Assembly (NCBI RefSeq): GCF_026130545.1
Contig: NZ_JAMOIM010000002.1
Span: forward strand, 1-64,000
Direction: 5' to 3'
Origin: Lichenifustis flavocetrariae
GTDB lineage: Bacteria; Pseudomonadota; Alphaproteobacteria; Rhizobiales; Beijerinckiaceae
DNA: 64,000 bases
Under the pieces are notes generated by a model. That model saw only the letters and a list, made by a program, of their open reading frames with translations, made no database searches and had not been told where the DNA came from. Positions 4,671-19,647 of this stretch are shown here, one piece after another; positions within the stretch are counted from its first letter, which is position 1; every line of letters begins with the position of its first letter. A program made the position numbers and the translations under genes.

Positions 4671-4987
4671 TTTCGGCCTGAGGCGAAACCGCTTGCGATT
4701 TCCTCGCGATCGCAAGGAAAGAAGGCGATCGTACTCGTCGTCGAAGACGAGGCCATACTGCGCATGACAGCCGTCGACCTGGTCGAGGATGCGGGCTTCG
4801 AAACCATCGAGGCGTCCAACGCCGACGAGGCGATACGCATCCTTGAGGCACGGACGGACATTCACATCGTGTTCACCGACGTCGACATGCCGGGGTCGAT
4901 GGACGGCCTCAAGCTCGCCCAGGCCGTTCGAGTTCGATGGCCTCCGCGGTCGACGACCTGCCGAAAGGCAGCGTCTTCGCGAAGTGA
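4671..4987 (+). pseudogene. Response regulator receiver remnant
   Basis: Translation of 4719-4940 gives a recognisable CheY-like receiver: LVVEDEAILR with the acidic pair, then IVFTDVDMPGSMDGLKLA with the phospho-acceptor Asp. The frame opens after a stop at 4668, and the only ATG (4764) falls after the acidic pocket, so no start gives a whole domain. After AVRVRWPP the homology breaks off, and a short continuation resembling the family's C-terminus (DLPKGSVF) appears in another frame before a stop at 4985. I read this as an internal deletion with a frameshift. Related stand-alone regulators are common in Rhizobiales. Alternative: an unusually short gene starting at 4764, which would lack key residues. 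Confidence 0.6.
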
Positions 4988-4989
4988 CC

Positions 4990-5067
4990 ATGGGCGAGCA
5001 CATCCTCGCGGGCATCGGCCTGATCCTTTGCCTGGGCATCATGGCCATCGCGGTTTTCGCGCCATGA
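4990..5067 (+). CDS. Tiny single-helix membrane protein (hypothetical)
   Basis: A 25-residue frame that is almost entirely one hydrophobic helix (GIGLILCLGIMAIAVF). Its stop overlaps the ATG of the next frame in an ATGA arrangement at 5064-5067, which suggests translational coupling. No family is recognised. It lies just after the response-regulator remnant, so it could be a fortuitous hydrophobic frame. Confidence 0.35.
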   Translation: MGEHILAGIGLILCLGIMAIAVFAP

Positions 5068-5660
5068 AGCTGGTCGCCTGGGTCTGCGGCACGGCGACCA
5101 TCCTCATCTGCTTCCTCGTCCTCTCCAGATTGCTGGGCAACTCTGATGTTTGGTCGCAAGAAGATCGTCCTCAACCTCGACCTCCCGAAAGCGGACGTCG
5201 AATTCGTGTCGGCCGAGCAGTTGAAGGCCATGGCACATGCGGTGGCGACGCGTCCCGTCGGCATGCTTGTCGCAGACCAGCCGCCGTTCGCGCCACCGGC
5301 GGTTGGACGACTTCCGAGCCGATGCAGCTCAGGCCCAACGAGGAGTTCCCCAGCGCCGACCTGAAGTCGAAGGTACGCGACTTGGTCGAGGGTATCGTGG
5401 ACCTCAAGGAGAAGGCTGCGCTCGCCACGAACCTGTTCTCGGTGACGCGCAAAGCGCCTCCGGCCGACCGGACCCGCCGCTACTTGGGCAAGCTACACAT
5501 CGTGGCGCCCAGCGAGGAGGAAGCCCGCGAGAACCTGCGGCATTTCCTCCGCCAGCGATGCAGCGCCGCCAAGGTCGAGGACTTCTCGATCCATCGTCTC
5601 GTCCACCGGCCCCACGCGGAATACGGCATCATCGACACCTACATGGTCGACCCGGGCTGA
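5064..5660 (+). CDS. Hypothetical protein with N-terminal membrane segment; internal frame conflict
   Basis: The frame is open for 198 codons. Residues 1-28 form a membrane helix (VAWVCGTATILICFLVL). Residues about 30-85 are Arg/Pro-rich with codon use unlike the neighbours, and a better coding signal there lies in another frame (5146-5364). From the ATG at 5322 the frame looks genuine again: acidic and Glu/Lys-rich, ending HAEYGIIDTYMVDPG. Possible readings are two genes (a short membrane peptide from 5064, and 5322-5660), or a gene from 5146 to 5660 broken by one frameshift near 5300. No domain is recognised. A strong terminator follows at 5776. Confidence 0.4.
   Translation: MKLVAWVCGTATILICFLVLSRLLGNSDVWSQEDRPQPRPPESGRRIRVGRAVEGHGTCGGDASRRHACRRPAAVRATGGWTTSEPMQLRPNEEFPSADLKSKVRDLVEGIVDLKEKAALATNLFSVTRKAPPADRTRRYLGKLHIVAPSEEEARENLRHFLRQRCSAAKVEDFSIHRLVHRPHAEYGIIDTYMVDPG
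5146..5364 (+). CDS. Overlapping hypothetical ORF, likely N-terminal half of a frameshifted gene
   Basis: A 72-codon frame starting MFGRKKIVLNLDLPKADVE. Its first ~50 codons have strong G/C third positions like real genes here, while the last ~20 (after about 5300) lose that bias just where the other frame gains it. A single 1-base shift near 5300 would join this start to the segment ending at 5660 and give a protein of about 170 residues. Function unknown. Confidence 0.35.
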   Translation: MFGRKKIVLNLDLPKADVEFVSAEQLKAMAHAVATRPVGMLVADQPPFAPPAVGRLPSRCSSGPTRSSPAPT

Positions 5661-5775
5661 CGGGACGGCCCAGCCGGCGGTGGCCAAAAACACCAGCAGC
5701 CGGGGAAGCGGGGTCTGACCTTGCCCTGCAAGGACCGGAGGACGGGGACGACGTGTCCGCATCGGCCCTCACCCA

Positions 5776-5810
5776 AAGCCCGGGGTCTCACCGCCCCGGG
5801 CTTCGTTTTT
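5776..5810 (+). terminator. Rho-independent terminator
   Basis: Perfect 10-bp stem, AAGCCCGGGG at 5776-5785 and CCCCGGGCTT at 5794-5803, with an 8-nt loop followed by CGTTTTT. It ends plus-strand transcription of the frames up to 5660 and sits 20 bp before the 3' end of the convergent protease gene, so it may serve both. Confidence 0.85.
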
Positions 5811-5830
5811 CCCGTGGGTCGAAAATCAAG

Positions 5831-7912
5831 CTAGGCCGTATTCGCTTGGGTTTTCCCCCACCGACTCCCGACCCTCGGATCGCTCGTCGCCCAATCCGGA
5901 TAGGCCTCGGGCTCGTCCACCTGGGGCCGCACCAGCTTCAGCAGGGGGTGCCGGACGAGCGCCCTGACCTCCGCGCCGTCCAGGTAGCGGTCCTGCACCA
6001 GGGCGGCGGCGACCCGCTCGACGTTGTCCCGGTGGTGGTGGACCAGCGCCAGGGCCCTGGCGTAGCAGCGGTCGACGAGGGCCCGCACGCCCTGGTGCAG
6101 CGGCCCCCATCCATCAAGAGCCTGCACGTCAAGGGAGAGCAGCCCGGTCTCCCGCCCGAATCCGTAGACGGCGTGGTAAGCGACCGCGCTCGCGGTCGCC
6201 GCTTTCAAGTCGCTCACGCTGCCGGTCGTGACCTCCCCGATGATGACCTGCTCGGCGGCCCGGCCGGCGAGGGTCATGACCATCTCGCGCTCCATCACCG
6301 CCGCCGTCGGATTCGCGGCCTTCCGCAGCGCGGTGTGCTGGCGGTCGGCGTCGACATAGTCGAGGTGCATGCCGACGGCCAACGCGACGATGGCGTGCCC
6401 GGCCTCGTGGACCGTGACCAGGCGTTCGCCGGCTGCGTCCCGCTCGCCACTTCGTTCGCGGACGACCCAGACGATGTCCCCCGGCAGCGCGGCGGCCCGG
6501 CCGAAGTCCCTCCGGGCGCGCCGCCTGGCATCGCGGCAGACCTGCTCGACGTCGGCCGGGCTCATCCCCCGGCAGGCCCGGGCAGCCAGCATGACCTGGC
6601 CGTCCAACTCCGGAGGCACCTGCCAGCCGATGTGGTGGCGGATGATCCCCGCCAGGTCGTCGATGCCCGGCAGCGGGATCGCGATCTCGCGGTCGAGGCG
6701 GCCCGGACGGCGCAGCGCGGCGTCGACCCGCTCCGGGAAATTCGTGGCGGCGATGACGACGATTCCGTCGCGCGGCTCCGCACCGTCGAGGCACTCCAGG
6801 AAGGCATTGTTGACCGCGTTGAAGTAGCTGGAGTTGTGGTCGGGCTTGAAATCCCGCCCGGGCACGCTGTCCATCTCGTCCAAGAACACGATGCAGGGCG
6901 CATGCTTCCGCGCCTCGTCGAACAGCTTCTTGAGGCCCTTCTCCACCTGGTAGCCGCTGCTGCTGGCCCCGCAGAGGCTGCTGAAGCTGCTCGGGAAGAA
7001 CTTGACCCCGGCCTCGGCCGCCAAGGCGCGGGCGAATCTCGTCTTCCCGACGCCGGGCGGCCCCGACAGCAGCACGCCCCGGTCGCAGTCGGCCCACGCC
7101 AACTCGCCCTGTCGGTAGGCGATCAGGTCCGCCGCGACCTCAAGCCCCCAGGCTTTGGCCGGCCCGAAGCCGGACAGCTTCGACAACGGGGTGTCGCGTT
7201 CGTGCTTGGGCTCACCGTCGAGCAGCCCATCAAGGAATTCCTTGGTGGTGTCCCGGCCCTTGGCGTCGGCGATCTCCTGCCTGCGCTTGGCCATTAACTT
7301 TTCATATGCGCTGGCGCGGAGGTCGCGGAGGATCGTCATCTTCGCCACGGCCGAATTGCAGTGGTCGCGCGGGCCGAGCGCGGTGCGGATGTCGGCGACT
7401 GTGACGTCCTTGAGCGAGGACGTCAGGGTCGGCCTTGTTCCGGTGACGAGTTGGACGACGCTGGCGATCACGCCCTCGGCGTCGACCCGGTCGAGCGTCA
7501 CGGATTTCGTGGTCCACGATCCGATGGCCGCGTGGACGGCGTCGGGATGCGTCACGACGACGATGAGCCCATAGCCCGCCTCACCCACTGCCTGCTGCCA
7601 GGCTTGGGGACCGACGACGTCGCCGATGTCCGCGTGGACGACGGCGCGCTCACGGTCGCGCTGCGGCGTATTGGGCACGTCGGTCGCGTCGATGTAGTGG
7701 TCGGGCCAGATCCGTTGCCCGATCCACGCCACGGCATCATGCAAATCGCCGTCATCGCCGACACCGACGATCACCCGGCCCATCTCGACGTCCTCGACCG
7801 TGACGCCGGCCCGATCGAGCAGGACGGCCGCGACGGCCTCGGAGGCGTAGGGCTTGGCCCCGGGGGTGCGCCTTTCCCAGGCGGCAAGGAGGGCTGCGGC
7901 GAACGTGGTCAT
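5831..7912 (-). CDS. Soluble FtsH-like AAA+ ATPase/zinc metalloprotease (M41-type)
   Basis: 693 residues. Residues 1-240 form an unrecognised N-terminal region without membrane helices. An AAA+ module follows, with Walker A GPPGVGKT (284-291), Walker B CIVFLDEMD (340-348) and the second region of homology with arginine fingers at ATNFPERVDAALRRPGRLDR (389-408). The C-terminal part carries the zinc motif HEAGH (502-506) and a plausible third ligand, Asp568 in GSVSDLKAAT, as in peptidase family M41. Bacterial FtsH has two N-terminal membrane helices; this protein has none, so it probably acts as a cytosolic ATP-driven protease with a different substrate-recognition domain. The start has a GGAG 8 nt upstream. 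It is divergent from the phosphoesterase at 8062. Confidence 0.85.
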   Translation of the reverse strand: MTTFAAALLAAWERRTPGAKPYASEAVAAVLLDRAGVTVEDVEMGRVIVGVGDDGDLHDAVAWIGQRIWPDHYIDATDVPNTPQRDRERAVVHADIGDVVGPQAWQQAVGEAGYGLIVVVTHPDAVHAAIGSWTTKSVTLDRVDAEGVIASVVQLVTGTRPTLTSSLKDVTVADIRTALGPRDHCNSAVAKMTILRDLRASAYEKLMAKRRQEIADAKGRDTTKEFLDGLLDGEPKHERDTPLSKLSGFGPAKAWGLEVAADLIAYRQGELAWADCDRGVLLSGPPGVGKTRFARALAAEAGVKFFPSSFSSLCGASSSGYQVEKGLKKLFDEARKHAPCIVFLDEMDSVPGRDFKPDHNSSYFNAVNNAFLECLDGAEPRDGIVVIAATNFPERVDAALRRPGRLDREIAIPLPGIDDLAGIIRHHIGWQVPPELDGQVMLAARACRGMSPADVEQVCRDARRRARRDFGRAAALPGDIVWVVRERSGERDAAGERLVTVHEAGHAIVALAVGMHLDYVDADRQHTALRKAANPTAAVMEREMVMTLAGRAAEQVIIGEVTTGSVSDLKAATASAVAYHAVYGFGRETGLLSLDVQALDGWGPLHQGVRALVDRCYARALALVHHHRDNVERVAAALVQDRYLDGAEVRALVRHPLLKLVRPQVDEPEAYPDWATSDPRVGSRWGKTQANTA

Positions 7913-8061
7913 GCGATGGCTCCGAACGGGGGAGCCGATCCATCTAACCGAGAACAGCTGCTATTTCGTTGAATCGATCACCTGGACACGGGGGTATCGC
8001 CCAGGGGTTCGTTGGATCCTTTGTGCCATGGTCAGGCCATCCCCGACATCAGGAGGCCACC

Positions 8062-8856
8062 GTGACCAAGCTGTGGATCGCGTCCGATTTCCACCAGGAG
8101 TTCCCCGGCAACCATGCGCTGCCACAGGTCCCCCGGGACGTGGACGTCATCGTCGTGGCCGGCGACGCGACGGCCCCGCTGTCCGACGCCCTGGCGTGGT
8201 TGCGGACGACGTTCGGCGACCGGCCCATCGTCTATGTCCCCGGCAACCACGATTTCTACCAGCACCACCGCGACGGCGGCGATGGCCGCATGACGATGGA
8301 CGAGATCCTGACGGTCGGCCGCGACGCGGCGGAGCGCTACGGCATCCACCTGCTGTCGGACGACGCGGTCACCATCGCGGGCGTGCGGTTCCTCGGGACC
8401 ACGCTCTGGACGGACTATCGCGTCGAGGGGACGCCGATCCAGGCGGCGATGCGTGCGGCCGAGAAGGGCATGAACGACTACAAGAACATCCGGCGGCCGA
8501 GCAGCACGAAGCCGACCAAGCCGATCCGGGCCGCCGACCTGCTGGCGCGGCATCGGGCGTCGGTCGAGTTCCTCGATGCGGAGCTGGCGCTGCCGTTCGA
8601 CGGGCCGACCGTGGTGGTCACCCACCACGCGCCGCATCGCCGGTCGCTGATGGTCCAGTTCGACCCGCTCAACGGCTGCTACGCCAGCGACCTGGAGTGG
8701 CTGATCCGGAAGCACAGCCCGCCGCTGTGGGTGCACGGGCACACGCACGTGCCGAGCGACTATGACGTCGGCAACACGCGGATCGTGTGCAACCCGCGCG
8801 GCTATCCCGGCGAAGTCTGCAACAGGCGCTGGGACCACGTCACGGTGGAGGTCTGA
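8062..8856 (+). CDS. Calcineurin-like metallophosphoesterase
   Basis: 264 residues with the full set of metal-binding motifs in order: SDFHQEF, VVAGDATA, VPGNHDF, THHAPH and GHTHV. These define the calcineurin-like phosphoesterase fold with a two-metal centre, acting on phosphomonoesters or phosphodiesters; the substrate is unknown. I chose the GTG at 8062 because AGGAGG lies 5 nt upstream and homology starts at the second residue; a longer frame begins at 7969. It overlaps the next small gene by one base (TGATG), so the two are co-translated. Divergent from the FtsH-like protease. Confidence 0.85.
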   Translation: MTKLWIASDFHQEFPGNHALPQVPRDVDVIVVAGDATAPLSDALAWLRTTFGDRPIVYVPGNHDFYQHHRDGGDGRMTMDEILTVGRDAAERYGIHLLSDDAVTIAGVRFLGTTLWTDYRVEGTPIQAAMRAAEKGMNDYKNIRRPSSTKPTKPIRAADLLARHRASVEFLDAELALPFDGPTVVVTHHAPHRRSLMVQFDPLNGCYASDLEWLIRKHSPPLWVHGHTHVPSDYDVGNTRIVCNPRGYPGEVCNRRWDHVTVEV

Positions 8857-9140
8857 TGGCCTCCACGCTGGCCTATGCCTACCTGCGGGCGTGTGACGCG
8901 GAGGGTATCGACGAGGACGGCTGGACCTTCGATGCCCTCCTGGCGGCCGGCGGACAGGGGGCCGACCCGCCCCCGCCCGTGCTGCCCGCGCCGGCGGCCA
9001 CGTGGGCGGAGAACGACGCCCGCCGCCGGGCCGTCGAGGCGACGATTGAATTTGCCCGGGCCAAGGGCATCGAGGTGCCGGAGGACGTCACCGTCCGGCT
9101 GCTGCAATGGATTCACGACGTGAAAGGCTGGAACGCATGA
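8856..9140 (+). CDS. Hypothetical protein (94 aa)
   Basis: Starts inside the stop of the phosphoesterase (TGATG at 8854-8858). 94 residues: an N-terminal helical part, a Pro-rich linker near residues 35-50 and a second helical part (ARRRAVEATIEFARAKGIEV). No family recognised. The coupling suggests a partner or accessory of the phosphoesterase, which is inference. Confidence 0.6.
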   Translation: MASTLAYAYLRACDAEGIDEDGWTFDALLAAGGQGADPPPPVLPAPAATWAENDARRRAVEATIEFARAKGIEVPEDVTVRLLQWIHDVKGWNA

Positions 9141-9235
9141 GGCTCGGCGGTCCACGTGAACGGATCGCCCAACCGGCTGCCATGACTCGCGTTCCGGCGA
9201 CGGTGATCCACCTGGATCGGGCCGGATCGTCGTGA
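9137..9235 (+). CDS. Possible 32-aa ORF
   Basis: ATG overlaps the preceding stop (ATGA at 9137-9140) and the frame runs 32 codons. Composition is Arg/Ala-rich and no domain is recognisable. Only the overlap pattern, common to the genes of this region, supports it. Confidence 0.22.
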   Translation: MRLGGPRERIAQPAAMTRVPATVIHLDRAGSS

Positions 9236-9258
9236 CCCTCGCCGACCCGCACGCGGGG

Positions 9259-9325
9259 ACGCCCTGTAAACAGGGCGTTCGGGCCCGGACTGCGGGAAAC
9301 GCACTTTTTACAGGGCGTTTCGGGC
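9259..9325. repeat. Inverted repeat and partial direct repeat
   Basis: ACGCCCTGT at 9259-9267 and ACAGGGCGT at 9270-9278 form a perfect 9-bp inverted repeat with a 2-bp centre. ACAGGGCGT occurs again at 9310-9318, each time followed by a TCGGGC tail. There is no U-run after the hairpin. Possible protein-binding sites near the attachment site at 9430; function unknown. Confidence 0.5.
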
Positions 9326-9351
9326 ACGCGGATTCCGGCACTTTGGACCCG

Positions 9352-9379
9352 CACCATTCCCATTACCGTTCCCAACGCG
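9352..9379 (+). repeat. Direct repeat, left copy (possible integrase arm site)
   Basis: Begins CACCATTCCCA and ends TTCCCAACGCG. A close copy lies at 9560-9584, so the pair brackets the tRNA-Pro fragment about 50-80 bp on each side. Arm-type binding sites of tyrosine integrases have this arrangement; that role is inferred. Confidence 0.5.
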
Positions 9380-9380
9380 G

Positions 9381-9402
9381 AAAAGCCGCCCGGAGGCGGC
9401 TT
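9381..9402 (-). terminator. Rho-independent terminator-like hairpin
   Basis: 8-bp stem, AAGCCGCC at 9383-9390 and GGCGGCTT at 9395-9402, with a 4-nt loop. Read on the minus strand it is followed by TTTT (plus-strand AAAA at 9381-9384, overlapping the stem). It would stop minus-strand transcription coming from the gene at 9596-9973. Confidence 0.6.
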
Positions 9403-9429
9403 GTCGGTCGTTGATATCGTTGGTGTTTT

Positions 9430-9480
9430 TGGTCGGAGTAATAGGATTCGAACCTACGACGCCCTCGTCCCGAACGAGGC
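9430..9480 (-). other. 3' fragment of tRNA-Pro(CGG), candidate attachment site core
   Basis: Read on the minus strand, it contains a full anticodon arm (CCTCG stem, loop TTCGGGA with anticodon CGG), variable loop, T arm with GGTTCGAATCC, the 3' acceptor strand TACTCCG, discriminator A and encoded CCA. It resembles the 3' half of bacterial proK. Upstream there is no D arm or 5' acceptor strand (CGGAGTA expected), so it is not a functional tRNA gene. Such 3' halves are the classic crossover core left by tyrosine-integrase elements. No integrase gene lies nearby. Confidence 0.75.
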
Positions 9481-9559
9481 TCGTCGAAACGTTTCCCCTC
9501 TGTGAGTCGAGGGGAACGCTCGCGAAATCGTACTACGGCTCCCCTCTGGGAACAAACGA

Positions 9560-9584
9560 CACCATTCCCAACCATTCCCACGCG
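9560..9584 (+). repeat. Direct repeat, right copy (possible integrase arm site)
   Basis: Begins CACCATTCCCA and ends CATTCCCACGCG, matching the copy at 9352-9379 with a few gaps. Lies 80 bp from the tRNA-Pro fragment. Confidence 0.5.
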
Positions 9585-9595
9585 ACGACCTCGTC

Positions 9596-9973
9596 TCAGT
9601 CAGAAGGCTGTCCGGCCCGCAGCAGGCTCAGGGCCACCGGCACCGGGTTGGCGATCGCCCACTTCGCGCTTGCGAGCACCGCCGATACCGGCATCGTCTC
9701 GGACTGCCAGCCCGAGAGTTCGCCACCTTGTTCGGTGTTGATCCGGTATCGCTCGTCCCCGTAGACGATGAACGTGGTCAACGGAGTGTCGAGATTGAAC
9801 GCGGACGCGTCCACGGCCGACCACACGATGTCGAATGCGGCGATGGCCTCGATGTACAGACCGCTGGTCCGTGAAGTCGGGTCGACTGGCACGTAACGAG
9901 CACGACGCACGATATCGTCGTCCGGAACGGGGTATTCGGACTCCTCGTCGACCTGCTGATAGTCCTCGGTCAT
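9596..9973 (-). CDS. Hypothetical protein (125 aa)
   Basis: 125 residues, acidic N-terminus (MTEDYQQVDEESEYPV) followed by a compact mixed region (SGLYIEAIAAFDIVWSAVD, YGDERYRI). An AAGGAGG lies 4 nt before the ATG. It is the last of a minus-strand run of small genes reaching back to 11559, 60 bp after the preceding one, and a terminator-like hairpin follows at 9381. No family recognised. Confidence 0.6.
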   Translation of the reverse strand: MTEDYQQVDEESEYPVPDDDIVRRARYVPVDPTSRTSGLYIEAIAAFDIVWSAVDASAFNLDTPLTTFIVYGDERYRINTEQGGELSGWQSETMPVSAVLASAKWAIANPVPVALSLLRAGQPSD

Positions 9974-10033
9974 GCTGCCTCCTTGGCCACTCGGGCCCGT
10001 TTCACCGTCGCTGGCGAGGATCGGACCTGCGCA

Positions 10034-10231
10034 TCAGTGCTTCGTCGCCCCTTCCAGGCACTGCTCCAGGACGAACGCCGCCACGGCCCGGGCGATGTCG
10101 GCCGGGATGGCGTCGGGCGGGCCGCCTGCCGGGACGATGACGCCCGAGCGGTCGACGGTGACGAAATAGGCAAGGTCGCCGCGCATGGCGCAATAGCCGC
10201 CAATGCGGGGGTCTTCGACGACGGTGATCAT
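10034..10231 (-). CDS. Hypothetical protein (65 aa)
   Basis: 65 residues starting MITVVEDPRIGGYC. The ATG sits inside the stop of the upstream gene (TGATG at 10229-10233), and this start removes an Arg-rich stretch present in the longer frame. The sequence alternates short beta-like and helical parts (LAYFVTVDRSGVIVPAGG). Unknown function, within the coupled minus-strand cluster. Confidence 0.55.
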   Translation of the reverse strand: MITVVEDPRIGGYCAMRGDLAYFVTVDRSGVIVPAGGPPDAIPADIARAVAAFVLEQCLEGATKH

Positions 10232-10689
10232 CACGGTTCTCCCGAGGGTGCGGTGAGGGTTGCCTTGCTGAGGCAGCGCGGGCACGTCGCGGCGCGCTCG
10301 ACGGACACCCAGCCTTGGGAGCGGCCGCCGGGGCGCTTGCCGCAGGCGGAGCGACCCCACACGTAGTCTCCGGCGTCGTCGCTGGGCAGGACGTGGATCA
10401 CCCGGCCGCCGTCGGCTTCGAACCCGTTGGCGAGGCGACCCAGCAAGCGGTGGGGTCGGCCCGTGCCGCCGGGGACGTCGTAGCGCGGCGTGCGGAGCCA
10501 CGATTGCCGACGCTCTTCGTTGACCTCGGCGGCGTGCCGAGCCTCCCTCTCCGGCTCCCCCGCCTTCCAGGCCACCTGATCGGCGGTGCGCTTGGCCTTT
10601 TCCTTCGCGATCTCCTCGGGTGTCATGTCCTCCTGACGGCGGGCGCGCGAGATGGCGGCCATCTCCGCGATGATGGATTGCATCGTCAT
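10231..10689 (-). CDS. Hypothetical protein with C-terminal zinc-ribbon-like cysteines (152 aa)
   Basis: Start chosen at 10689 because the ATG overlaps the upstream stop (ATGA) and the earlier extension is Arg-rich shadow. Residues 1-70 are charged and helical (MAAISRARRQEDMTPEEIAKEKAKRT, a coil-like stretch). The C-terminal half carries an SACGK and a TCPRC motif, which could bind zinc, perhaps nucleic-acid related. No family recognised. Confidence 0.6.
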   Translation of the reverse strand: MTMQSIIAEMAAISRARRQEDMTPEEIAKEKAKRTADQVAWKAGEPEREARHAAEVNEERRQSWLRTPRYDVPGGTGRPHRLLGRLANGFEADGGRVIHVLPSDDAGDYVWGRSACGKRPGGRSQGWVSVERAATCPRCLSKATLTAPSGEP

Positions 10690-10955
10690 GCGAACGCGTC
10701 CTCCCCGTTCAGCACGATCTCGCTGATAGCCTCGACGCCGGCCGCGTCGAGGACAGCGCGCTGCGCCTCCTCTGGCACCATGCGGCCGTAGTATTCGTAG
10801 ACCTTCGCGCGACCCCGGATGACGTCGATGCCGCACTGGTAGATCTGCCGCTCCGAGGCGACGCGGACGATCCACGACTGGTCGCGACCGGTCTCCTTGG
10901 GCAGCATCGTCAGGGAGATGCCGGGGAAGCGGTCTTCGATGTGCTTGGGTTTCAT
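10686..10955 (-). CDS. Hypothetical protein (89 aa)
   Basis: 89 residues starting MKPKHIEDRFPGISL. The ATG overlaps the stop of the upstream HTH-like gene (ATGA at 10952-10955). Central part SWIVRVASERQIYQCGIDVIRG looks like a small beta-sheet, followed by helices. No recognised family. Confidence 0.55.
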   Translation of the reverse strand: MKPKHIEDRFPGISLTMLPKETGRDQSWIVRVASERQIYQCGIDVIRGRAKVYEYYGRMVPEEAQRAVLDAAGVEAISEIVLNGEDAFA

Positions 10956-11188
10956 TTGTTGTCCTCGATGTGTTTGCGGACGAGGGCCACGGCGGCGCTG
11001 CATTCGGCGCGGCGGTCCTGTGCGACAGTGAGGAGGTCCTTGATGACCCCGGGCGGGATTTCGAACTCGTTGGCGTGCCAACGCCGCAGGCGGCGGTCGC
11101 TGACCTTCAGTGATTTGGCGAGATCGGTCTGCCACTGCTTGCCGTAGAGCGCGGTGCCGACCTCCTTGAGGATCGAGTTGTCGATCAT
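10952..11188 (-). CDS. Small helix-turn-helix protein (78 aa)
   Basis: 78 residues. The segment WQTDLAKSLKVSDRRLRRW fits a helix-turn-helix of the phage Cro/XRE type, followed by NEFEIPPGVIKDLL, a pattern seen in small alphaproteobacterial phage-island regulators. The ATG lies in the stop of the upstream gene (TGATG at 11186-11190). It probably binds DNA and may regulate this cluster; inferred from the motif only. Confidence 0.6.
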   Translation of the reverse strand: MIDNSILKEVGTALYGKQWQTDLAKSLKVSDRRLRRWHANEFEIPPGVIKDLLTVAQDRRAECSAAVALVRKHIEDNK

Positions 11189-11559
11189 CAGGCCGACGCG
11201 TAGGCCAACGCGAGGGTGGCCAAATCGCTGGCCTCCTCGCCGAAGCGGCGCAGCATGTCGCGCTCCTTTGCGCCCCTGACCTGGGTCGGCAGGATGGCGC
11301 ACTTGCCCTGGAGGCGTCCGCAGACGGCAGCGAGCTGGACCAGCGTGTTGGCGTCCAGCGCCTCGTCCGGGTCCTTGAGGAAGCCCTCTACGCGTTCGAG
11401 GTCCTCGGCTTCCTGGGCGAAAGCCTCGTTGCCCGACCGTTCGACGTAGAACTTCAGGATGCGGATGCCGTGCTGGGCATCGTCGCGGAACAGCGCTTCG
11501 AGCTTGGCAGGCTCGATCGGCGCGTTGCGCGCGATGATGTTGAGTGTCGCTAAGAGCAT
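11188..11559 (-). CDS. Hypothetical helical protein (123 aa)
   Basis: First gene of the coupled minus-strand cluster. Mostly helical and acidic (APIEPAKLEALFRDDAQHGIRILKFYVERS). ATG at 11559 preferred: a GGAGG lies about 10 nt upstream; an ATG at 11580 would add seven residues (MGRRPST). No family recognised. Confidence 0.6.
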   Translation of the reverse strand: MLLATLNIIARNAPIEPAKLEALFRDDAQHGIRILKFYVERSGNEAFAQEAEDLERVEGFLKDPDEALDANTLVQLAAVCGRLQGKCAILPTQVRGAKERDMLRRFGEEASDLATLALAYASA

Positions 11560-11809
11560 GGTGCTGGGCCTCCTGCCCATGGGCGTGGCCTATGCCGCCG
11601 CCACTGACCTAATATTAGGTCGCTCTTTGGAGGGTTGCAAGCGCTGTTTCTGTTTTCCCGACATCCGTGAAATCGGATTGATTCGGTCGGCCGCGAGACT
11701 CCTTCCGATCAAGCCTCCTCGCGCGGGAGGGCGCGACCCAGCTCGCCATCAGGCAGGTCCTCTACGATCCTCCGCGCGACGTTTTTGCCTTTTCGCGTTG
11801 GGCGTCGCG

Positions 11810-12082
11810 ATGCAGGCCATCGAGAAGTTGCCGTCCCTCCCGACCTCACCGTACGACCGCGCCTACCTTCACCTGATGCGCTATTTCGCGACCGGCGACA
11901 CGTCGTTCGAAGAGGCCCAGAAGCGGATCATCGACGTCAAGGTACAGATCGAAAGCCTCGACCGGGTCGCGGCTTGGATCGTCTCGCAAGGGCGCGAGGC
12001 CGCGACCGACCGGGACGACGACGCCGGCTACCTGGCGCGATGTTTCCAGGCCGTGGAGCGACACCACCTGATCAACGGCTGA
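11810..12082 (+). CDS. Hypothetical protein (90 aa)
   Basis: 90 residues starting MQAIEKLPSLPTSPYDRAYLHL, helical throughout. The frame is open further upstream, but only from this ATG do composition and codon bias look coding. Divergent from the cluster starting at 11559. Unknown function. Confidence 0.5.
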   Translation: MQAIEKLPSLPTSPYDRAYLHLMRYFATGDTSFEEAQKRIIDVKVQIESLDRVAAWIVSQGREAATDRDDDAGYLARCFQAVERHHLING

Positions 12083-12147
12083 AGCGACGCGCTGCCGCAT
12101 CCGTTCACGTCTTGTTCTATCACGCGAACCGAGTCAATGTGTCGCGT

Positions 12148-12378
12148 ATGACTACACCGACCGCCCTAGCCTCCCGCATCCATCAAGCCCGCATCGCCGC
12201 CGGGTTCAAGACACCCGACGAGGCCGCCATAAAGTTGGCGATGGCAAACGAAGCGTACCGCAACCATGAAATCGGCCGCCACGCCGTCAAGCCCGCAGAA
12301 CTGAGGCGCTATGCCGAGGCATTCCGGGTGTCGCATGGGTGGTTGGCGACGGGCGTTGGGTTGGGGCCTGCGGGATGA
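12148..12378 (+). CDS. XRE-family HTH regulator (76 aa)
   Basis: 76 residues forming one helix-turn-helix domain: ASRIHQARIAAGFKTPDEAA then NEAYRNHEIGRHAVKPAELRRYAEAF and ending SHGWLATG. This is the layout of small XRE repressors, often encoded by prophages and islands. The start lacks a clear Shine-Dalgarno, so it may be leaderless or weakly translated. It is the best candidate for the local master repressor; targets unknown. Confidence 0.75.
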   Translation: MTTPTALASRIHQARIAAGFKTPDEAAIKLAMANEAYRNHEIGRHAVKPAELRRYAEAFRVSHGWLATGVGLGPAG

Positions 12379-12408
12379 AAAAAGGCCCGGCACTTCGTGT
12401 GCCGGGCC
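12378..12408 (-). terminator. Strong Rho-independent terminator (minus strand)
   Basis: Perfect 10-bp stem, GGCCCGGCAC at 12384-12393 and GTGCCGGGCC at 12399-12408, with a 5-nt loop. Plus-strand AAAAAA at 12378-12383 gives a U-run on the minus strand. It ends the small gene at 12419-12595 and lies at the tail of the XRE gene, so the two are convergent here. Confidence 0.9.
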
Positions 12409-12418
12409 GGTTGTCGGA

Positions 12419-12595
12419 TCAGATCGGCCTAGGACTGGCGTGGGGGAAACGACGGCCATGGACTACATGGCAGACGGTACCGACGTTCAGCCCGACGACG
12501 ATCGCGGCGTGGGTCTGCGAATAACCGCAGACATGGACGAGCCACAGCACGTGGCACGCCTTTTCATAGGTACAAGGGTAGTAGTATTTGGACAC
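12419..12595 (-). CDS. Small HTH-like protein (58 aa)
   Basis: 58 residues if started at the GTG at 12595; the frame is open to 12751. The body AIVVGLNVGTVCHVVHGRRF preceded by VCGYSQTH reads as a helix-turn-helix in which the protein samples a repeat-free core of about 40 residues. Similar short proteins occur in Methylobacterium-like genomes to my knowledge, but I cannot name a family. A strong terminator follows directly. Start uncertain: no clean Shine-Dalgarno. Confidence 0.5.
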   Translation of the reverse strand: MSKYYYPCTYEKACHVLWLVHVCGYSQTHAAIVVGLNVGTVCHVVHGRRFPHASPRPI

Positions 12596-12808
12596 GACGA
12601 GGCATCCCTCGCTAACGATGAAGGATGCTCCCGCCTTGATAAACGCCCCCGGGCGTGCGATCTTTCGATCCGTAGGGCCCGCACGGAAGCGCTCCCAAAA
12701 CGGGAGCGGTGACGTTGGGTTCAGGGACCGGGACCTCGGTGTTGGAAGCACCTTGGTTTCCGGTTTCCCTGACCCGCTATGCAGCGGTTCGGATCAAGCC
12801 CCTCTCCC

Positions 12809-13387
12809 TCATCTGAAGATTTCCGCTTCCGCCGCCTCGTAGGCCTGCGGATCGGGTTCGGTGGCGCGCTCGCCGTCGCTCCCCTGGTCGTGCCCGGGCT
12901 GTCCGAAGACGCCGCCCGTGTACCGTTGGGGCGCGGGCCCGCCGTCCTCTGTCGAGGTCGCGGCCGGCGGCGCAGGTGGTGGGGTTTCGGGAGCGGGACG
13001 CTTGAGGCCGTAGCCCTCGCCCTGCTTGTGGTCCAACTCGTCCATGTTGCTGAGGTACGACGACATGGTGCCGGACGGTTTCTGGCCGCCGATCTCGACG
13101 CCGGCCCTGGTCACCACTTCCAGCAGTTCGGACGTCTGGGCACGGGCGTTCTTTTTGGTCAGGTACTCGATCACGATGGGGCGGATCTGCGCGGCCTTGC
13201 TGCCGGGACGCGGACCGGATGGCCCGAAGGTCTTGATCATCGTATCGAGGACGGACGGCTTCGACGCGGCGCGATACGCTTCCAGAACGGCGCGAACGGC
13301 CTGGAGCTTGAGGAAGGTCGGGTTGCGGCTCAGTTCTTCCGTGAGCCGCTGCTCCTCTGCCTCCGCGATCGCGATGAAGTCGTCCAT
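12809..13387 (-). CDS. Hypothetical protein with winged-helix-like domain and disordered tail (192 aa)
   Basis: Residues 1-60 are helical (ATG, MDDFIAIAEAEEQRLTEEL). Residues about 65-120 (IRPIVIEYLTKKNARAQTSELLEVV ending MSSYLSNMDEL) have the helix order of a HARE-HTH/winged-helix domain, used in chromatin and restriction proteins to bind DNA. The last ~65 residues are Pro/Ala/Gly-rich and likely disordered. The upstream region holds an inverted repeat at 13446. A DNA-binding accessory role is inferred. Confidence 0.6.
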   Translation of the reverse strand: MDDFIAIAEAEEQRLTEELSRNPTFLKLQAVRAVLEAYRAASKPSVLDTMIKTFGPSGPRPGSKAAQIRPIVIEYLTKKNARAQTSELLEVVTRAGVEIGGQKPSGTMSSYLSNMDELDHKQGEGYGLKRPAPETPPPAPPAATSTEDGGPAPQRYTGGVFGQPGHDQGSDGERATEPDPQAYEAAEAEIFR

Positions 13388-13678
13388 GGGCCAATACCCC
13401 TGTTATCCCACATGTATACGGCCGTCTGCGATTTTCGGCAAGCCGGCGTCTGTGCAATGCAGACGCGCATACGCTCCCGGGACCTCACATACATTGACGC
13501 CATGTAATTCTTGTCTGGTAAAACCCTGTAAATACTCATATTTCTTTGATTGGCAAATCGGTAGGTGGAATCTATCCGCACCTAAAAACATACATGCTTC
13601 GTGGGCGTTGCCCACTTGACGGGAGGAAATCACGCTGGAGTGATTCGCGTCAGATGACGGCATCGCCTTTGATGCCGG
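13388..13678. promoter_or_regulatory. A/T-richer intergenic region with inverted repeat
   Basis: About 290 bp without a convincing gene, noticeably richer in A/T than its surroundings. It contains the inverted repeat GCGTCTG (13446-13452) and CAGACGC (13460-13466), and two ACATACAT words near 13488 and 13588. It is the promoter region of the gene starting at 13387 and the 3' flank of the PcfJ-like gene. Confidence 0.4.
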
Positions 13679-15247
13679 TCATCGCGCCATCCTCGCGTGC
13701 CGGGCGCTCAGGGCCTGATAGACAGCACGTTGGAAGTCGCGCACGTCCTCGCGGCCCATCCGACCTGCCTTGAAGGCACGGCGCTCCTGACGGTTCATGC
13801 CGGCCGCCTTCTGCTCGGCCTCGTCGTAGGGGGTGATGACCGTCGGCTCGGGCGTCTCCGAGAGTGACCGCTTCTCCCGTCGGTTCCAACGGCCGTTCCC
13901 CACGTGGATCAGCATGGCGTCCTCCATGACGCTCATGGGGTCGACGCCGCTCTCGACGGTGACCCTGCCGCTCCCGGCCGGCACCACGACGAGCGTCCGA
14001 CCGGCGACGCGGATCTCCGTGCGGGTCTTGACCGTCAGAGGTCGCCACCTTTCGTCGCGCCACAGGTAGACCTGTCCCTCGGGCGACCAGATGTTCGTGT
14101 CGAACCCGAACCGCAGGTTCACGCTGCCGTTCGCCCGGACGCGGTCTTCCGGCGGCCCATAGGTCGCCACCAGTTCGGGACCGTGGCGCTCGACCTTCCT
14201 CTCGCTCTTGCGTCCGGTCTCGTCCCACCAGGTGTCGATCCAAGACGTCGTGACGACATGGCCGTCGTGCATCGACACGGGGGCCGAGCCCCTCTTCGGC
14301 GTCTCGAACATCTCCGGCAGCATCGTGACACCGCGCGCCCGGTAGGCCGCCCGGAGCGGCGCCATGTGGCGCAACTCGTCCGGCTCCATTGGCCGGTTCC
14401 GGGCGCCGACGACCTGTATCGTGTGATTCTCTTTCGAGGCCGACGGGTCCGGGAGCACCATGTGGGTGTAGCCTTGGACGTCGTTGTGCAAGCGGGGCCG
14501 GACGTCCGGCGCGAAGAACGCCGTGAGCACGCTCCTCCCCTTGGCATCCCTGAGTGACCAGATGCCTCCCCGTTCCACCGGCAGCTTGGCGTGACGGTCG
14601 TAGCCGCCCCGGCCGACGCAATGGCCCATGGCGTCGCTCTCGCGGTCCAGGGCGTCCTCGGAGACGAGACACACCCAGTGGTGGCCGTCGTGGCTCTCGA
14701 CGCGGTCGGCCGTGCCGTCGCTGCCGGCGGCGACGGCCTTCCGTTTGGCCATGGCGGCGTGCCACTTGCGGGAGCGTTCCTCGGCCTGGGCCCAGGTCAT
14801 CCGGTGGAGGCGCGTGCACAGGGGCGGGTCGGACATGTAGAGCCCATTGAGCCAGTCGACGAGGTAGCAATCGTTCGTCGAGATCAGGTACTCGCGAAGG
14901 CGGCGATGGAAATCACTCCAATCACCCACGTTGCCTTTGGCGAGCATCGGCATCGTGAAACTGCCTTCGGCTGCGGCGTCGCGCACGCGGATCGCTTTCG
15001 CGATGGCCAGCTCATCCCATGACATCTTGGGGCTGAATTTTCCCCAGGGGAGCTTCGCTGCAACGAGGGGCGGCAACACTTGCTGAAAGCTCTCGACTCC
15101 GACCATAGCCCTGGCGCGCTCCACCAGCACGTCGGGGTACACGCGCATCACCCAATCGCGCATCAGAGTGCCCTCGCACTCGCCTGCAAGGAACACCGCG
15201 ATGCTGGTGAACATCGGCAAATCGTAGGGGATGAAGCGGTGGCTCAT
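13679..15247 (-). CDS. PcfJ-like protein (522 aa)
   Basis: ATG at 15247 chosen because it overlaps the upstream stop (ATGA) and the 59-residue extension of the longer frame is Arg-rich. Near residues 195-235 the sequence DAMGHCVGRGGYD followed by GGIWSLRDAKGRSVLTAFF matches the core of the PcfJ-like domain found in conjugative plasmids, phages and islands (paired Cys/His around a conserved GHCV). The C-terminal 200 residues are beta-rich and end in a basic tail. The molecular role of PcfJ-like proteins is not established. Large for this region; it closes the minus-strand cluster from 17163. Confidence 0.65.
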   Translation of the reverse strand: MSHRFIPYDLPMFTSIAVFLAGECEGTLMRDWVMRVYPDVLVERARAMVGVESFQQVLPPLVAAKLPWGKFSPKMSWDELAIAKAIRVRDAAAEGSFTMPMLAKGNVGDWSDFHRRLREYLISTNDCYLVDWLNGLYMSDPPLCTRLHRMTWAQAEERSRKWHAAMAKRKAVAAGSDGTADRVESHDGHHWVCLVSEDALDRESDAMGHCVGRGGYDRHAKLPVERGGIWSLRDAKGRSVLTAFFAPDVRPRLHNDVQGYTHMVLPDPSASKENHTIQVVGARNRPMEPDELRHMAPLRAAYRARGVTMLPEMFETPKRGSAPVSMHDGHVVTTSWIDTWWDETGRKSERKVERHGPELVATYGPPEDRVRANGSVNLRFGFDTNIWSPEGQVYLWRDERWRPLTVKTRTEIRVAGRTLVVVPAGSGRVTVESGVDPMSVMEDAMLIHVGNGRWNRREKRSLSETPEPTVITPYDEAEQKAAGMNRQERRAFKAGRMGREDVRDFQRAVYQALSARHARMAR

Positions 15248-15528
15248 TGTCCCGCCTTCCCCATCCAGGCCTGGACGTCGATCCCCATGCGGATCGCCCG
15301 GGCCTTGCCGAGCGCGATGGCCCGCTCGCGATCGTCGTACGGGAACAGCGTCATGAGCCGCCGCCGGGCCTCCGACGCGAGCTTGGCGTTCGTGTCGGCG
15401 TGGAAATCGCCGTGGACCAGCCACAGCAGCCCGTATGCGGTCAGCAGGCGTTCCCGGTCATCGGCATCCCACATCTTTTGGAATTCATCCTCCGGGACGG
15501 CTTGGACGGGCGGCTTGGTGACCGTCAT
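15244..15528 (-). CDS. Hypothetical protein (94 aa)
   Basis: 94 residues, overlapping both neighbours by 4 bases (ATGA at each end). Contains a helical run (DEFQKMWDADDRERLLTAYGLLWLV) and an Ala/Arg helix. No family recognised. Co-translated with the PcfJ-like gene downstream. Confidence 0.6.
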   Translation of the reverse strand: MTVTKPPVQAVPEDEFQKMWDADDRERLLTAYGLLWLVHGDFHADTNAKLASEARRRLMTLFPYDDRERAIALGKARAIRMGIDVQAWMGKAGQ

Positions 15529-15905
15529 GCCGCCACCTCGTCGTCATCGTCGTTCCTAGGGAACGGGTGGTTGCCCTCGATCCAACTGTCCCGAAAGAAA
15601 TCCATCGCCTTTTCCAGGGCGCGCTTTTCCAGGGCGGCCTCGATCTCGGTCCGATCCTGCTCGGGCACGTCATCCCAGGCGACCTCGTCGCCATCGCGGA
15701 CGACAAGGTCCGGATGATCGTTGTCGGCGCGGAAGTTGCGGATGTCCTCGCCTCCGAAGACCACGGTGTCCGTCCGGACGTCGCACCAGTAGTCGACGAT
15801 GGTCACCACCCTGTAGGCATGGCCGCCGATCGACCTGACGTCCAGGTCGGCATCGAAATGGCCGCCGACGTCCTCTTCCCAGGTTCCCTTGTCCTCGTCC
15901 GCCAT
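15525..15905 (-). CDS. Hypothetical acidic protein (126 aa)
   Basis: 126 residues, strongly acidic (opens MADEDKGTWEEDVGGHF, ends DDDDEVAA). Start at 15905 supported by GGAGG 8 nt upstream; the longer frame is Arg-rich before that point. The core VVTIVDYWCDVRTDTVVFGGEDIRNF looks beta-rich. Its stop overlaps the next ATG. Acidic small proteins in islands are sometimes DNA mimics; nothing here proves that. Confidence 0.6.
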   Translation of the reverse strand: MADEDKGTWEEDVGGHFDADLDVRSIGGHAYRVVTIVDYWCDVRTDTVVFGGEDIRNFRADNDHPDLVVRDGDEVAWDDVPEQDRTEIEAALEKRALEKAMDFFRDSWIEGNHPFPRNDDDDEVAA

Positions 15906-15967
15906 CGTCCGCCTCCGCGACACTCCTGGGGATCGACGCGACCGCGGAGTGCTGAAAGCTCCAAGGA

Positions 15968-16399
15968 CTATTTTCTGAGGAGCGCGATGATGGAGATGAC
16001 AAGGCTGACGACAGGCAGGACGAGGGCCACCCACCTGCTCCAGGCCTCGAACGACTCCTTGCGCTCGGCCCGGATCGCCGACCGAAGCCTGTGCAGTTCC
16101 GGCCGCGTCAGGCGCCAACGCCCGTCGTGTTGCGACCGTTCGTAGGGGCCGCCCTCCTTGGTATCGAAATCAGGCACCGGGACGTGGTACCGCCGTGCTT
16201 GATCCTTCAGGCGACGGCCGAGGAGCCAGTCGATCTCGTCCGTGATCACGCCCTCTTCGTCCATGGCCTCGGACGACAGGCGATCCCTTTCCTCATGGTC
16301 GGTCTCGACCTTGAGCGCCTTGAGGTAGTGGCGCCGGACCGCTTCGGCCTGCCGTTGGAGACGACCGATCCGCCAGCGATGGATGATGCCGGCGATCAT
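15968..16399 (-). CDS. Hypothetical protein with C-terminal membrane anchor (143 aa)
   Basis: Charged helical body (residues 1-115, e.g. RWRIGRLQRQAEAVRRHYLK) and one C-terminal membrane helix (VALVLPVVSLVISIIALL) followed by RK. A tail-anchored topology with a cytoplasmic coiled body is likely. Overlaps the upstream gene by 4 bases (ATGA). Unknown function. Confidence 0.6.
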   Translation of the reverse strand: MIAGIIHRWRIGRLQRQAEAVRRHYLKALKVETDHEERDRLSSEAMDEEGVITDEIDWLLGRRLKDQARRYHVPVPDFDTKEGGPYERSQHDGRWRLTRPELHRLRSAIRAERKESFEAWSRWVALVLPVVSLVISIIALLRK

Positions 16400-17163
16400 C
16401 GTGCCAACGACTGCCGCGCTTTGAAGGCTGCGTCCGTGCGATAATAGCTTTCGTAGGTCTTGTCGTGCTGGTCGTCGTGGAATGTCGAGTAGACCCCGTA
16501 CTCGTCGGTCTTCTTGAATGCGATGCCGGTCTCGTTGTCGGGCGACAGGCCGTAGGGGATCTGGAAGACCTCGACCTCCGCGTCAGAGAACGTTTCGTGC
16601 AGTCCGGCGTAGGGCTCGCCCTTGCCGGCACCGAAGCCCTGGCGGTAGGCCCAGCAGCGCCGCATGGCGTCCTCGATCCGGGCCCGGAAGCGGCGGTCCT
16701 TCACCTTCCGCACGGTGTCGAGCAACACCTTGTGCTCCTTCTCGTCGTGCGACGGCCGCCGGCGCACGACGTCGATCTCGGAGCGGTTCTTCATGAGGAC
16801 CAGCATCCGGCCGATCTCCAGGTAACGCTCCACCAGGTCGTCGTCGGACGCGGCCCAACGGCCCTCGGCGTAGGGAATGAAATGCCGGGTGCCGAAGATG
16901 TCGAAGTCCTGGAACATCGGGATCTTGGCGACGAGCGCCAACTCGTCGGCCCGCAGCCGGTCCGGGTTCTTCGCCGTCTCCCGTTCCCAGGCCCACGCCC
17001 GTTCGTAGCACCGCACCATAAGGTCGGGATCGGTCTCGACGATCAGGTTGGCTACCTCGCGCCGGAGGACCTCCAGGTGCCTGATCTCGGCCTCGTCCAG
17101 GTTGCGCGCGAGTCGCGCAAGGGCCGGGTCCGGCTGCTGCACCTTACGCCCGAACAACCCCAT
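16396..17163 (-). CDS. Hypothetical protein (255 aa)
   Basis: First gene of the minus-strand cluster 17163 to 13679. 255 residues, helical first half (LARLARNLDEAEIRHLEVLRR) and a second half with many aromatic residues (YGVYSTFHDDQHDKTYESYY). No catalytic motif recognised. It begins 92 bp from the divergent plus-strand cluster at 17256, so promoters for both lie in that gap. Confidence 0.6.
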   Translation of the reverse strand: MGLFGRKVQQPDPALARLARNLDEAEIRHLEVLRREVANLIVETDPDLMVRCYERAWAWERETAKNPDRLRADELALVAKIPMFQDFDIFGTRHFIPYAEGRWAASDDDLVERYLEIGRMLVLMKNRSEIDVVRRRPSHDEKEHKVLLDTVRKVKDRRFRARIEDAMRRCWAYRQGFGAGKGEPYAGLHETFSDAEVEVFQIPYGLSPDNETGIAFKKTDEYGVYSTFHDDQHDKTYESYYRTDAAFKARQSLAR

Positions 17164-17255
17164 CGATTCGCTCCCGCCGCAATATCGATAGCGTAGCAGA
17201 AAGAGCTTGGAGCTTTCTCGGGTCCGCGGTCGCGTCGGGTGGAAGGAGTGTCGCG

Positions 17256-17672
17256 ATGGACATGGAAGCGATTTTCAAGGGGATGGCCGAGCAGGCCGCC
17301 AAGGAAGCCAAGAGGGCCAAGCCGCTGCCCGAGGCGGTGGTCATGGAGTTGCGCGAGGCCGCCAAGCGGTACGCGCGAGTGAACCCGTTCAAGGTCGGCG
17401 ACCTCGTCACGCCGACGACCGGCGCCAACATCAAGGGCCAGGGCGATCCCCACGTCGTCATCGGCCTGCGCCAGCCGACCTACGCGTTCGACGGCAATCC
17501 CGGATCGCACACCTATGGGCTGCGCATCGACATGCGGGTGTTGCAGATCATCGACGGGCTGACGGTGCCGTTCTGGGTGGAGTCCGCGATGTTCGACGCC
17601 TGGAACGACCCGGACGCGCCGGCCGGGCACGAGCTCATCACCCTGCCGGAGATGGAGTCCGCCCGTGGCTGA
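17256..17672 (+). CDS. Hypothetical protein (138 aa)
   Basis: 138 residues. A basic helix opens it (MAEQAAKEAKRAKPLPEAVV), then a beta-rich core (FKVGDLVTPTTGANIKGQGDPHVVIGL) that could be an SH3-like or KOW-like barrel; this is a guess from the pattern. AAGGAG lies 7 nt before the ATG. First of five coupled plus-strand genes. Confidence 0.6.
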   Translation: MDMEAIFKGMAEQAAKEAKRAKPLPEAVVMELREAAKRYARVNPFKVGDLVTPTTGANIKGQGDPHVVIGLRQPTYAFDGNPGSHTYGLRIDMRVLQIIDGLTVPFWVESAMFDAWNDPDAPAGHELITLPEMESARG

Positions 17673-18009
17673 CGTCGACACGATCATGGCCCGCCTCGCG
17701 CAGGGCCGGCCATCCACGGTCCACGTCGTCGACCCAGTGTCGCGCGGGGTCCGCGAGGTTTCGGTCGACCAGGCCTTTGCCGCCTGCGTCACCGGCGACA
17801 CCGTCTTCGTGCCGATGCGCGACTCCTTGAGCGAACGGCTCCAGCATGCGCTCCGTCTGACCGACGAAGCCAAGGCGATCATCGAGGAGGTGCTCACCGG
17901 CATGATCGCCGACTGCGCCGTCACGACGGTCGGCGACGACGTCCTGCGGCAGGCGCTCGGGCACCTGGTGGAGAGGGGCTTCGACGTGGTGCCGGAGGCC
18001 AAGCGATGA
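17665..18009 (+). CDS. Hypothetical protein (114 aa)
   Basis: GTG start, overlapping the previous gene by 8 bases. Residues 1-50 beta-rich (PSTVHVVDPVSRGVREVSV), the rest helical (AKAIIEEVLTGMIADCAV). No family recognised. Co-translated in the 17256-18929 cluster. Confidence 0.55.
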   Translation: MADVDTIMARLAQGRPSTVHVVDPVSRGVREVSVDQAFAACVTGDTVFVPMRDSLSERLQHALRLTDEAKAIIEEVLTGMIADCAVTTVGDDVLRQALGHLVERGFDVVPEAKR

Positions 18010-18230
18010 CGGCGCCGATGCCCCGTCCCGAGGACGACCCCGTCGCCTACGCCGCGATCCTGAGGGACAAGGCGGCCTTCCATGAGCGCAAGGGCAACCA
18101 CGGCACCGCGCATTGGTTCCGGCGCGAGGCCTCCAAGATCGAGGCCGATCCGAGCCACGCCAGGATTACCAAAGGCATCCTCGGCATCATGCGCCAGGCC
18201 GGACCCATGCTGAAGGAGGGCAGGATCTGA
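18006..18230 (+). CDS. Hypothetical protein (74 aa)
   Basis: ATGA overlap with the preceding gene. 74 residues, helical, with a His/Arg-rich middle (HERKGNHGTAHWFRREA). No recognised family. Confidence 0.55.
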   Translation: MTAPMPRPEDDPVAYAAILRDKAAFHERKGNHGTAHWFRREASKIEADPSHARITKGILGIMRQAGPMLKEGRI

Positions 18231-19450: not shown

Positions 19451-19571
19451 GGGATGTATCCGGAGGCTTGCGCCACCAGGATTTCCGGCCTTTTCCACAG
19501 GTAACGGTGGCCCTATCGGTGGCACCTTTTCGGCGTCGCCGGGGTCAGGATCGCTGTTTCAGGGGGAAACT

Positions 19572-19647
19572 TGGTGGGCGGTGACGGGCTCGAACCGCCG
19601 ACCCTCTCGGTGTAAACGAGATGCTCTACCAACTGAGCTAACCGCCC
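19572..19647 (-). tRNA. tRNA-Val(TAC)
   Basis: 76 nt with encoded CCA. Acceptor GGGCGGT pairs with ACCGCCC; D arm GCTC/GAGC; anticodon stem with loop TTTACAC giving anticodon TAC; T arm GGCGG TTCGAGC CCGTC. All arms pair, so it is functional. Its 3' end faces the accessory region. Confidence 0.95.

Follow-up and report, generated by a model that had tools for sequence, protein, structure and literature searches.

The stretch at 9354-9580 shows, in its sequence, the anatomy of an uncut attP, predicted to belong to a tyrosine integrase that would target tRNA-Pro(CGG). Its parts follow in the order left arms, a core that is the 3′ half of the tRNA, a terminator-like hairpin, and right arms. The window (the whole 64,000-nucleotide stretch analyzed here) is the left end of contig C103 in a draft genome of 7.5 Mb in 180 contigs. 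We assigned the following features to the site and its immediate neighborhood.

9259..9318, no strand: palindrome ACGCCCTGTAAACAGGGCGT, near-perfect, with a second, degraded copy, next to the right arms, from the direct/inverted repeat listing
9354..9374, minus strand: paired right arms, TGGGAACGG and TGGGAATGG, at about +56 and +68 past the CCA
9380..9405, minus strand: G+C-rich inverted repeat (hairpin) and short T run after the CCA on the tRNA strand, terminator-like by eye
9430..9479, minus strand: 3′ half of tRNA-Pro(CGG), att core, matching G000:C136:12002-12051 at 48/50 positions, without a 5′ half
9489..9551, no strand: two similar CCCCTCTGnGA stretches (a repeat family) between the core and the left arms
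9562..9580, minus strand: paired left arms, both TGGGAATGG, at about -100 and -90 relative to the tRNA half
9596..9973, minus strand: orphan open reading frame of 125 amino acids next to the left arms, with no Pfam or PHROG match at E <= 0.1

The tRNA half begins at the 5′ strand of the anticodon stem and contains the anticodon stem-loop, variable loop, T arm, acceptor 3′ strand, and an encoded CCA. The core of a tRNA-targeting attP is identical or nearly identical to the 3′ end of a host tRNA gene; here, 48 of 50 positions agree with the intact tRNA-Pro(CGG) gene on another contig of the same genome (G000:C136:12002-12078). By inspection, one of the two differing positions falls in the variable loop, and the other makes a G-U pair of an acceptor G-C pair. 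ARAGORN called no tRNA at 9430-9479. The Rfam tRNA model scored 17.9 bits against a cut-off of 29, and even so only with non-tRNA DNA serving as the 5′ half. A search of the 600 nt upstream for the real 27-nt 5′ half gave a best ungapped match of 16/27, which is chance level, since 70 of 300 background stretches reach it. The tRNA call, the Rfam score, and the 5′-half search together rule out a full tRNA, or a split tRNA with an insert, at this position. An earlier note on this DNA had placed the whole site correctly and had described an isolated tRNA-Pro 3′ half ending in CCA; the half is real and its 5′ partner absent, but its length by alignment is 50 nt rather than 51. The same note had called for a search for the intact gene, which turned up on C136, and had named an intact upstream 5′ half as one finding that would overturn its account; none lies within 600 nt. 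The exact core variant occurs in 1 of 397 genomes of the order, namely the window's own, and was found in no viral contig.

Copies of the repeat lie at 9352-9362 and 9560-9570 (CACCATTCCCA), at 9570-9580 (AACCATTCCCA), and at 9365-9376 (ACCGTTCCCAAC). Read on the tRNA strand, they become TGGGAAYGG in two pairs, one on either side of the core, which bears out the earlier claim that repeats flank the tRNA half on both sides. This paired pattern has exactly two matches in the 7.5-Mb assembly, both at the window site. A search for the pair across 397 genomes of the family returned 15 matches in 11 genomes; the remaining 13 fall, by eye, in coding sequence or simple repeats, and a tRNA scan of 12 of the 15 loci detected no tRNA. 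As for the other parts of the site, the hairpin at 9380-9405 was not listed by a terminator scan of the window, and a similar hairpin stands between the tRNA-Pro CCA and the right arms in a related genome, G004. The CCCCTCTGnGA stretches are possible accessory sites, and the ACGCCCTGTAAACAGGGCGT palindrome appears operator-like.

We tested the attP reading on five reference elements for which both ends were found. Two sit in tRNA-Pro, in G004 (C62, C30) and G002 (C188, C13); three are in the window's genome, in tRNA-Val (C103, C115), tRNA-Lys (C21), and tRNA-Arg (C92). Both ends share a contig only in the tRNA-Lys and tRNA-Arg elements; the G004, G002, and tRNA-Val ends are on different contigs and were treated as pairs because tRNA and arms agree. 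To count as an arm motif, a 9-mer had to occur two or more times on each of the two sides, with up to one mismatch, and some pair of copies had to be 9-22 nt apart. When ends were compared against each other, 5/5 elements had paired arms on both sides, whereas 0/10 real attL/attR junctions had them as they stand (the G002 attR flank being only 125 nt). The window site has paired arms on both sides as it stands, and we therefore read it as having the anatomy of an unsplit attP. An attL or attR would have arms on one side only and host flank on the other, and that arrangement was not seen here. This contrast supports the logic of the earlier note, in which a single attL or attR carries arms on one side and arms on both sides indicate an attP-type site.

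The layout agrees as well. At the window site the arms are at -100/-90 and +56/+68, compared with -111/-101 and +59/+71/+87 in G004, -101/-90 and +36/+48 in G002, -99/-89 and +48/+60 in the tRNA-Val element (plus a stray copy at +199), -137/-126 and +59/+70 in the tRNA-Lys element, and -152/-137/-126 and +47/+58 in the tRNA-Arg element. All five siblings thus share a design in which the left arms start 89-152 nt before the 3′ half and the right arms lie 36-87 nt after the CCA, with copies 10-12 nt apart (15-16 nt at the extra third copy in G004 and tRNA-Arg). The window site has matching arms on both sides in the same layout. None of 150 first-order Markov reshuffles of its two 220-nt flanks reached the arrangement, and the same control gave 0/150 each for G004, G002, and tRNA-Val. 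It was likewise absent from 34 intact tRNA flanks (30 loci, some tRNAs counted twice), and 2 of 250 random centres in the window reached it, through other motifs. A cruder count of shared words was weaker: the site shares two 10-mers and eight 7-mers between its flanks, and 84, 28, 16, and 7 of 500 reshuffles reached its shared 7-, 8-, 9-, and 10-mers, respectively.

A cognate integrase usually stands beside an attP, although it is not strictly required, and none was found beside this one. The genome has 26 PF00589 matches, none of them on contig C103. Neither a Pfam scan of 23 window proteins nor a PHROG scan of 20 gave an integrase. We also searched 1-19571, from the contig start to tRNA-Val, by tblastn with 28 integrase queries representing 27 distinct genes (25 open frames from the 26 PF00589 loci, plus C115, G002, and G004, with the C115 gene present twice); nothing was better than E 0.025 over 20 amino acids. 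As a sensitivity control, the known integrase on C115 was found at E <= 1e-3 by only 4 of the 28 queries, two of which are copies of itself, and its gene is below the Pfam cut-off. Because so few queries recover it and Pfam passes it over, a very divergent integrase might be missed in 1-19571. Within these limits, the earlier statement that no integrase is nearby holds. Each of the five reference elements has an integrase match on its left-arm side: at C115 and G002:C13 the match directly adjoins the half, and at C21, C92, and G004:C30 it is about 0.8-2.5 kb away. The corresponding side of the window site (9.6-19.57 kb, the 10 kb to tRNA-Val) has no such match, and the 125-amino-acid orphan frame occupies the place where the integrase stands in two of the reference elements.

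The site lies within a segment that ends at another tRNA gene. Its main features are as follows.

4950..19571, no strand: putatively phage-like segment containing the site, with a presumed left border
5831..7912, minus strand: AAA and M41 (FtsH-like) protease, PF00004 and PF01434
7969..8856, plus strand: metallophosphoesterase, PF00149 and phrog_1649
18917..19525, minus strand: phosphoesterase, phrog_547, 1.4e-48
19503..19530, minus strand: arm pair GCCACCG of the tRNA-Val element, ends approximate
19572..19647, minus strand: intact tRNA-Val(TAC), interpreted as the attL of a second element; the last 49 nt of the gene are repeated at G000:C115:30063-30111

The left border was placed at about 4949, at a truncated response regulator, to the left of which are HlyD and MFS genes of ordinary bacterial type. 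Genes between about 4950 and 19525 are mostly orphans. We use the label phage-like tentatively because, of the 20 proteins scanned, only 4 match a PHROG at E <= 1e-5, and no structural or packaging protein is among these. A 581-amino-acid protein (13679-15424) has no Pfam match and is, we presume, reminiscent of PcfJ-like proteins; 4 of 397 family genomes, its own included, have relatives, and in the other three these match about 100-120 residues only. Viral contigs held no relatives of the 581- or 125-amino-acid proteins and two weak ones of the metallophosphoesterase. FtsH-like and phosphoesterase genes touch in three of the seven best FtsH-like relatives (G001, G002, and G004; E <= 5.5e-70), and in one more about 1.7-1.9 kb separates them. 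In the window the distance is 11 kb, and the orientation is what opening a circle between the two genes would give. We take circular permutation of the segment as a hint only, because phage-like open reading frames continue to the left of the FtsH-like gene. Tetranucleotide usage shows no break in the segment at the site, and at its left end no match to tRNA-Val, among those listed, is longer than a chance 12-mer.

A tRNA-Val element most likely ends at position 19571, with the tRNA-Val gene as its attL, since the 3′ 49 nt of the gene recur on C115 beside an integrase and both ends (C103 and C115) have the arm motif GCCACCGAT in common. The C115 half adjoins a tyrosine integrase at C115:30128-31504 (PF00589 7.2e-5, under the curated cut-off). 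In G002 the displaced tRNA-Pro half has an integrase-like protein next to it, and the C115 enzyme shares 37.8% identity with that protein. Beyond tRNA-Val(TAC) are genes that we take, from their translations, to be lon, clpX, clpP, and tig. That one element joins C103 and C115 is something we infer, because C103 starts at window base 1 and no exact overlap of 13-200 bases was found between the end of C115 and the start of C103. In G001-G004, tRNA-Asp lies 0.9-1.3 kb from tRNA-Val; in the window's genome tRNA-Asp is on C91, where the stretch 33000-35500 contains no CCGCCCACCA end of tRNA-Val. On C115, the DNA past the displaced half is not the ancestral flank of tRNA-Val, which points to further rearrangement of that locus.

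The reading that we prefer, and consider reasonably probable, is that a composite or retargeted element, having used the tRNA-Val integrase, still contains this attP as a leftover. We infer its history as follows. The source element would belong to a type that is frequent in this genus and has an integrase that binds both arms and core and exchanges the 3′ half of the tRNA at the anticodon stem. It would not have recombined here through the tRNA-Pro attP. Instead, it may have fused to an element addressed to tRNA-Val, or had its integrase module replaced by one so addressed. Entry into the chromosome would then have been by a different attP and integrase, those of tRNA-Val(TAC), with one end at 19571 and the old attP untouched. 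Since its own integrase is not in sight, the tRNA-Pro attP is probably a stranded, inactive relic. A variant of this history, which we regard as a long shot, makes the tRNA-Val element a natural two-target element, with a functional attP for tRNA-Val and another for tRNA-Pro that the integrases of related elements could use in trans. The arms of such elements, for instance TGGGAAGCA at tRNA-Lys and tRNA-Arg, are close. An element with several attP sites would be expected to bring a separate integrase for each; the tRNA-Val integrase alone was seen, and the middle of the element is outside the assembly. If the two-target variant were true, an integrase-less passenger could split, move, or invert chromosome segments.

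The earlier note had offered two histories, a captured remnant and a junction of tandem insertions, and the captured remnant fits better. If two elements had inserted in tandem in tRNA-Pro and later been rearranged to the present place, the middle junction would have attP anatomy by an established mechanism (PMC9934374 describes a tandem prophage whose junction is shared), and the left border at about 4949 does resemble a rearrangement scar. At such a junction, however, two element ends meet and the left-arm side should carry an integrase, as it does in 5/5 reference elements; none was found in the 10 kb on that side, the segment is bordered on the right by an att site that belongs to another tRNA, and no DNA repeat longer than about 63 nt occurs between or within the two sides. 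We judge this history quite improbable. An assembly fault is unlikely; it would mean that the tRNA-Val contig had been wrongly extended with reads of a contaminating phage or of an excised circle. Such a circle would display an intact attP, the assembly is in 180 contigs with 3.04% contamination, and the segment has few relatives, as the 581-amino-acid protein illustrates. But both paired-arm matches sit at the window site, so no attL or attR with these arms is seen that could be the integrated source of a circle, and the tRNA-Val join is itself a proper att end whose arms match those on C115.

Two further explanations concern the site alone. In an ordinary displaced 3′ half, an attR, the repeats on the chromosomal side would be there by chance. 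The right flank could be chromosome because, by eye, G003 and G005 also have a hairpin behind their native tRNA-Pro, and the G003 alignment extends past the tRNA. Yet the same arm pair lies on both sides, an arrangement that the reshuffles, tRNA flanks, and sibling junctions described above never reproduced and random centres reproduced twice; this explanation is very unlikely and close to refuted. We give still less credence, almost none, to the idea that a phage small RNA resembling a tRNA is transcribed here and ends at a terminator behind the CCA. The hairpin and short T run would suit it, and RNA folding gave z-scores of -2.83 for 9370-9600 and -1.65 for 9432-9545. Against it, no sigma-70-like promoter or terminator was listed there, no tRNA fold exceeds the cut-off, and the arms are left unexplained.

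The intact tRNA-Pro(CGG) gene on C136 has an arm-like CGAACAG pair at +59/+71 and itself seems to be occupied by a third element. No displaced tRNA-Pro half other than the window fragment was found in the assembly. The idea that the window half was displaced by the element now in the C136 gene is disfavored, as the arms there are CGAACAG, not TGGGAAYGG. Elsewhere in the genome, the tRNA-Lys(TTT) and tRNA-Arg(TCG) elements, at G000:C21:28293-48611 and G000:C92:626876-647843, are about 20 and 21 kb long and carry one arm motif, TGGGAAGCA, despite their different target tRNAs. Eight intact tRNA genes of the window's genome have a 9-mer pair 11-13 nt apart, 30-65 nt after the CCA, in a scan of 42 flanks that included duplicates and genes of five relatives (background, 44 of 3,000 stretches). 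Elements that share one arm layout may occupy many tRNAs.

We found no relative with the same arms beside an integrase among the family genomes and the loci of the pattern scan. The pattern was found in four viral contigs, none with a tRNA. Among at least 118 loci, a loose T-loop motif preceded the match in 1 of the 118 listed, and it was not tRNA-like. A tblastn search of 212 pattern loci with 25 integrases of the genome itself matched four, none of the four with a tRNA. Among the papers listed from the open-licence PMC literature, judged by title and start of abstract, we found no description of an integrase-less attP inside a prophage.

The site is a clear but modest oddity of genome evolution and not a new kind of system. 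It is an apparently clean case of an attP outliving its integrase inside an element addressed to another tRNA, the step expected when phages or islands exchange integrase modules to switch target. Beyond this case, five tRNA-targeting elements of one genus share an arm layout, so paired 9-mers at fixed distances can reveal unsplit, orphan, and occupied att sites in draft genomes, and the integrase need not be found first.

The attP of a lambda-type integrase has arm and core sites. Attachment sites of tyrosine integrases at tRNA 3′ ends are in print, for example, that of ICEMlSym(R7A) in PMC5882170, and tRNA-Lys cores of 46-49 bp in Sinorhizobium elements appear in PMC11476347. The window site is like these tRNA-targeting sites in that its core is a tRNA 3′ end, it has arm repeats on both sides, and the half that it bears could restore the tRNA; unlike them, it has no integrase found beside it and lies uncut inside DNA that ends at another tRNA. 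The tripartite ICE3 of Mesorhizobium also carries attP sites for more than one target in one element, but that element is conjugative and has an integrase and an RDF for each of several attP sites, according to PMC5882170, whereas the window case shows at most one integrase. In the tandem prophages of M. abscessus (PMC9934374), a phage-phage junction can resemble an uncut site; in contrast to the window site, two whole prophages share one attB there, each with its own integrase. Elements of the same genus can be compared as well. The G004 tRNA-Pro(CGG) element (C62 attL, C30 attR) has the same tRNA, an anticodon-stem crossover, a hairpin and then arms after the CCA, and, some 100 nt ahead of the half, the other arms; genes for an FtsH-like protein and a phosphoesterase lie 6-9 kb from its tRNA-Pro and are probably on board, the two contigs being unlinked. 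It differs in its arms (CGGGGACAG), in being split into attL and attR, and in having an integrase-like gene. The tRNA-Lys and tRNA-Arg elements have arms close to TGGGAAYGG in similar places, but each has an integrase match and split sites, and no proteins of the window segment were found in them (E <= 1e-4). Apart from the usual neighboring integrase, of which none was found, the window site agrees, as judged from its letters, with the lambda-type attP of tRNA genes in each testable feature of the site.
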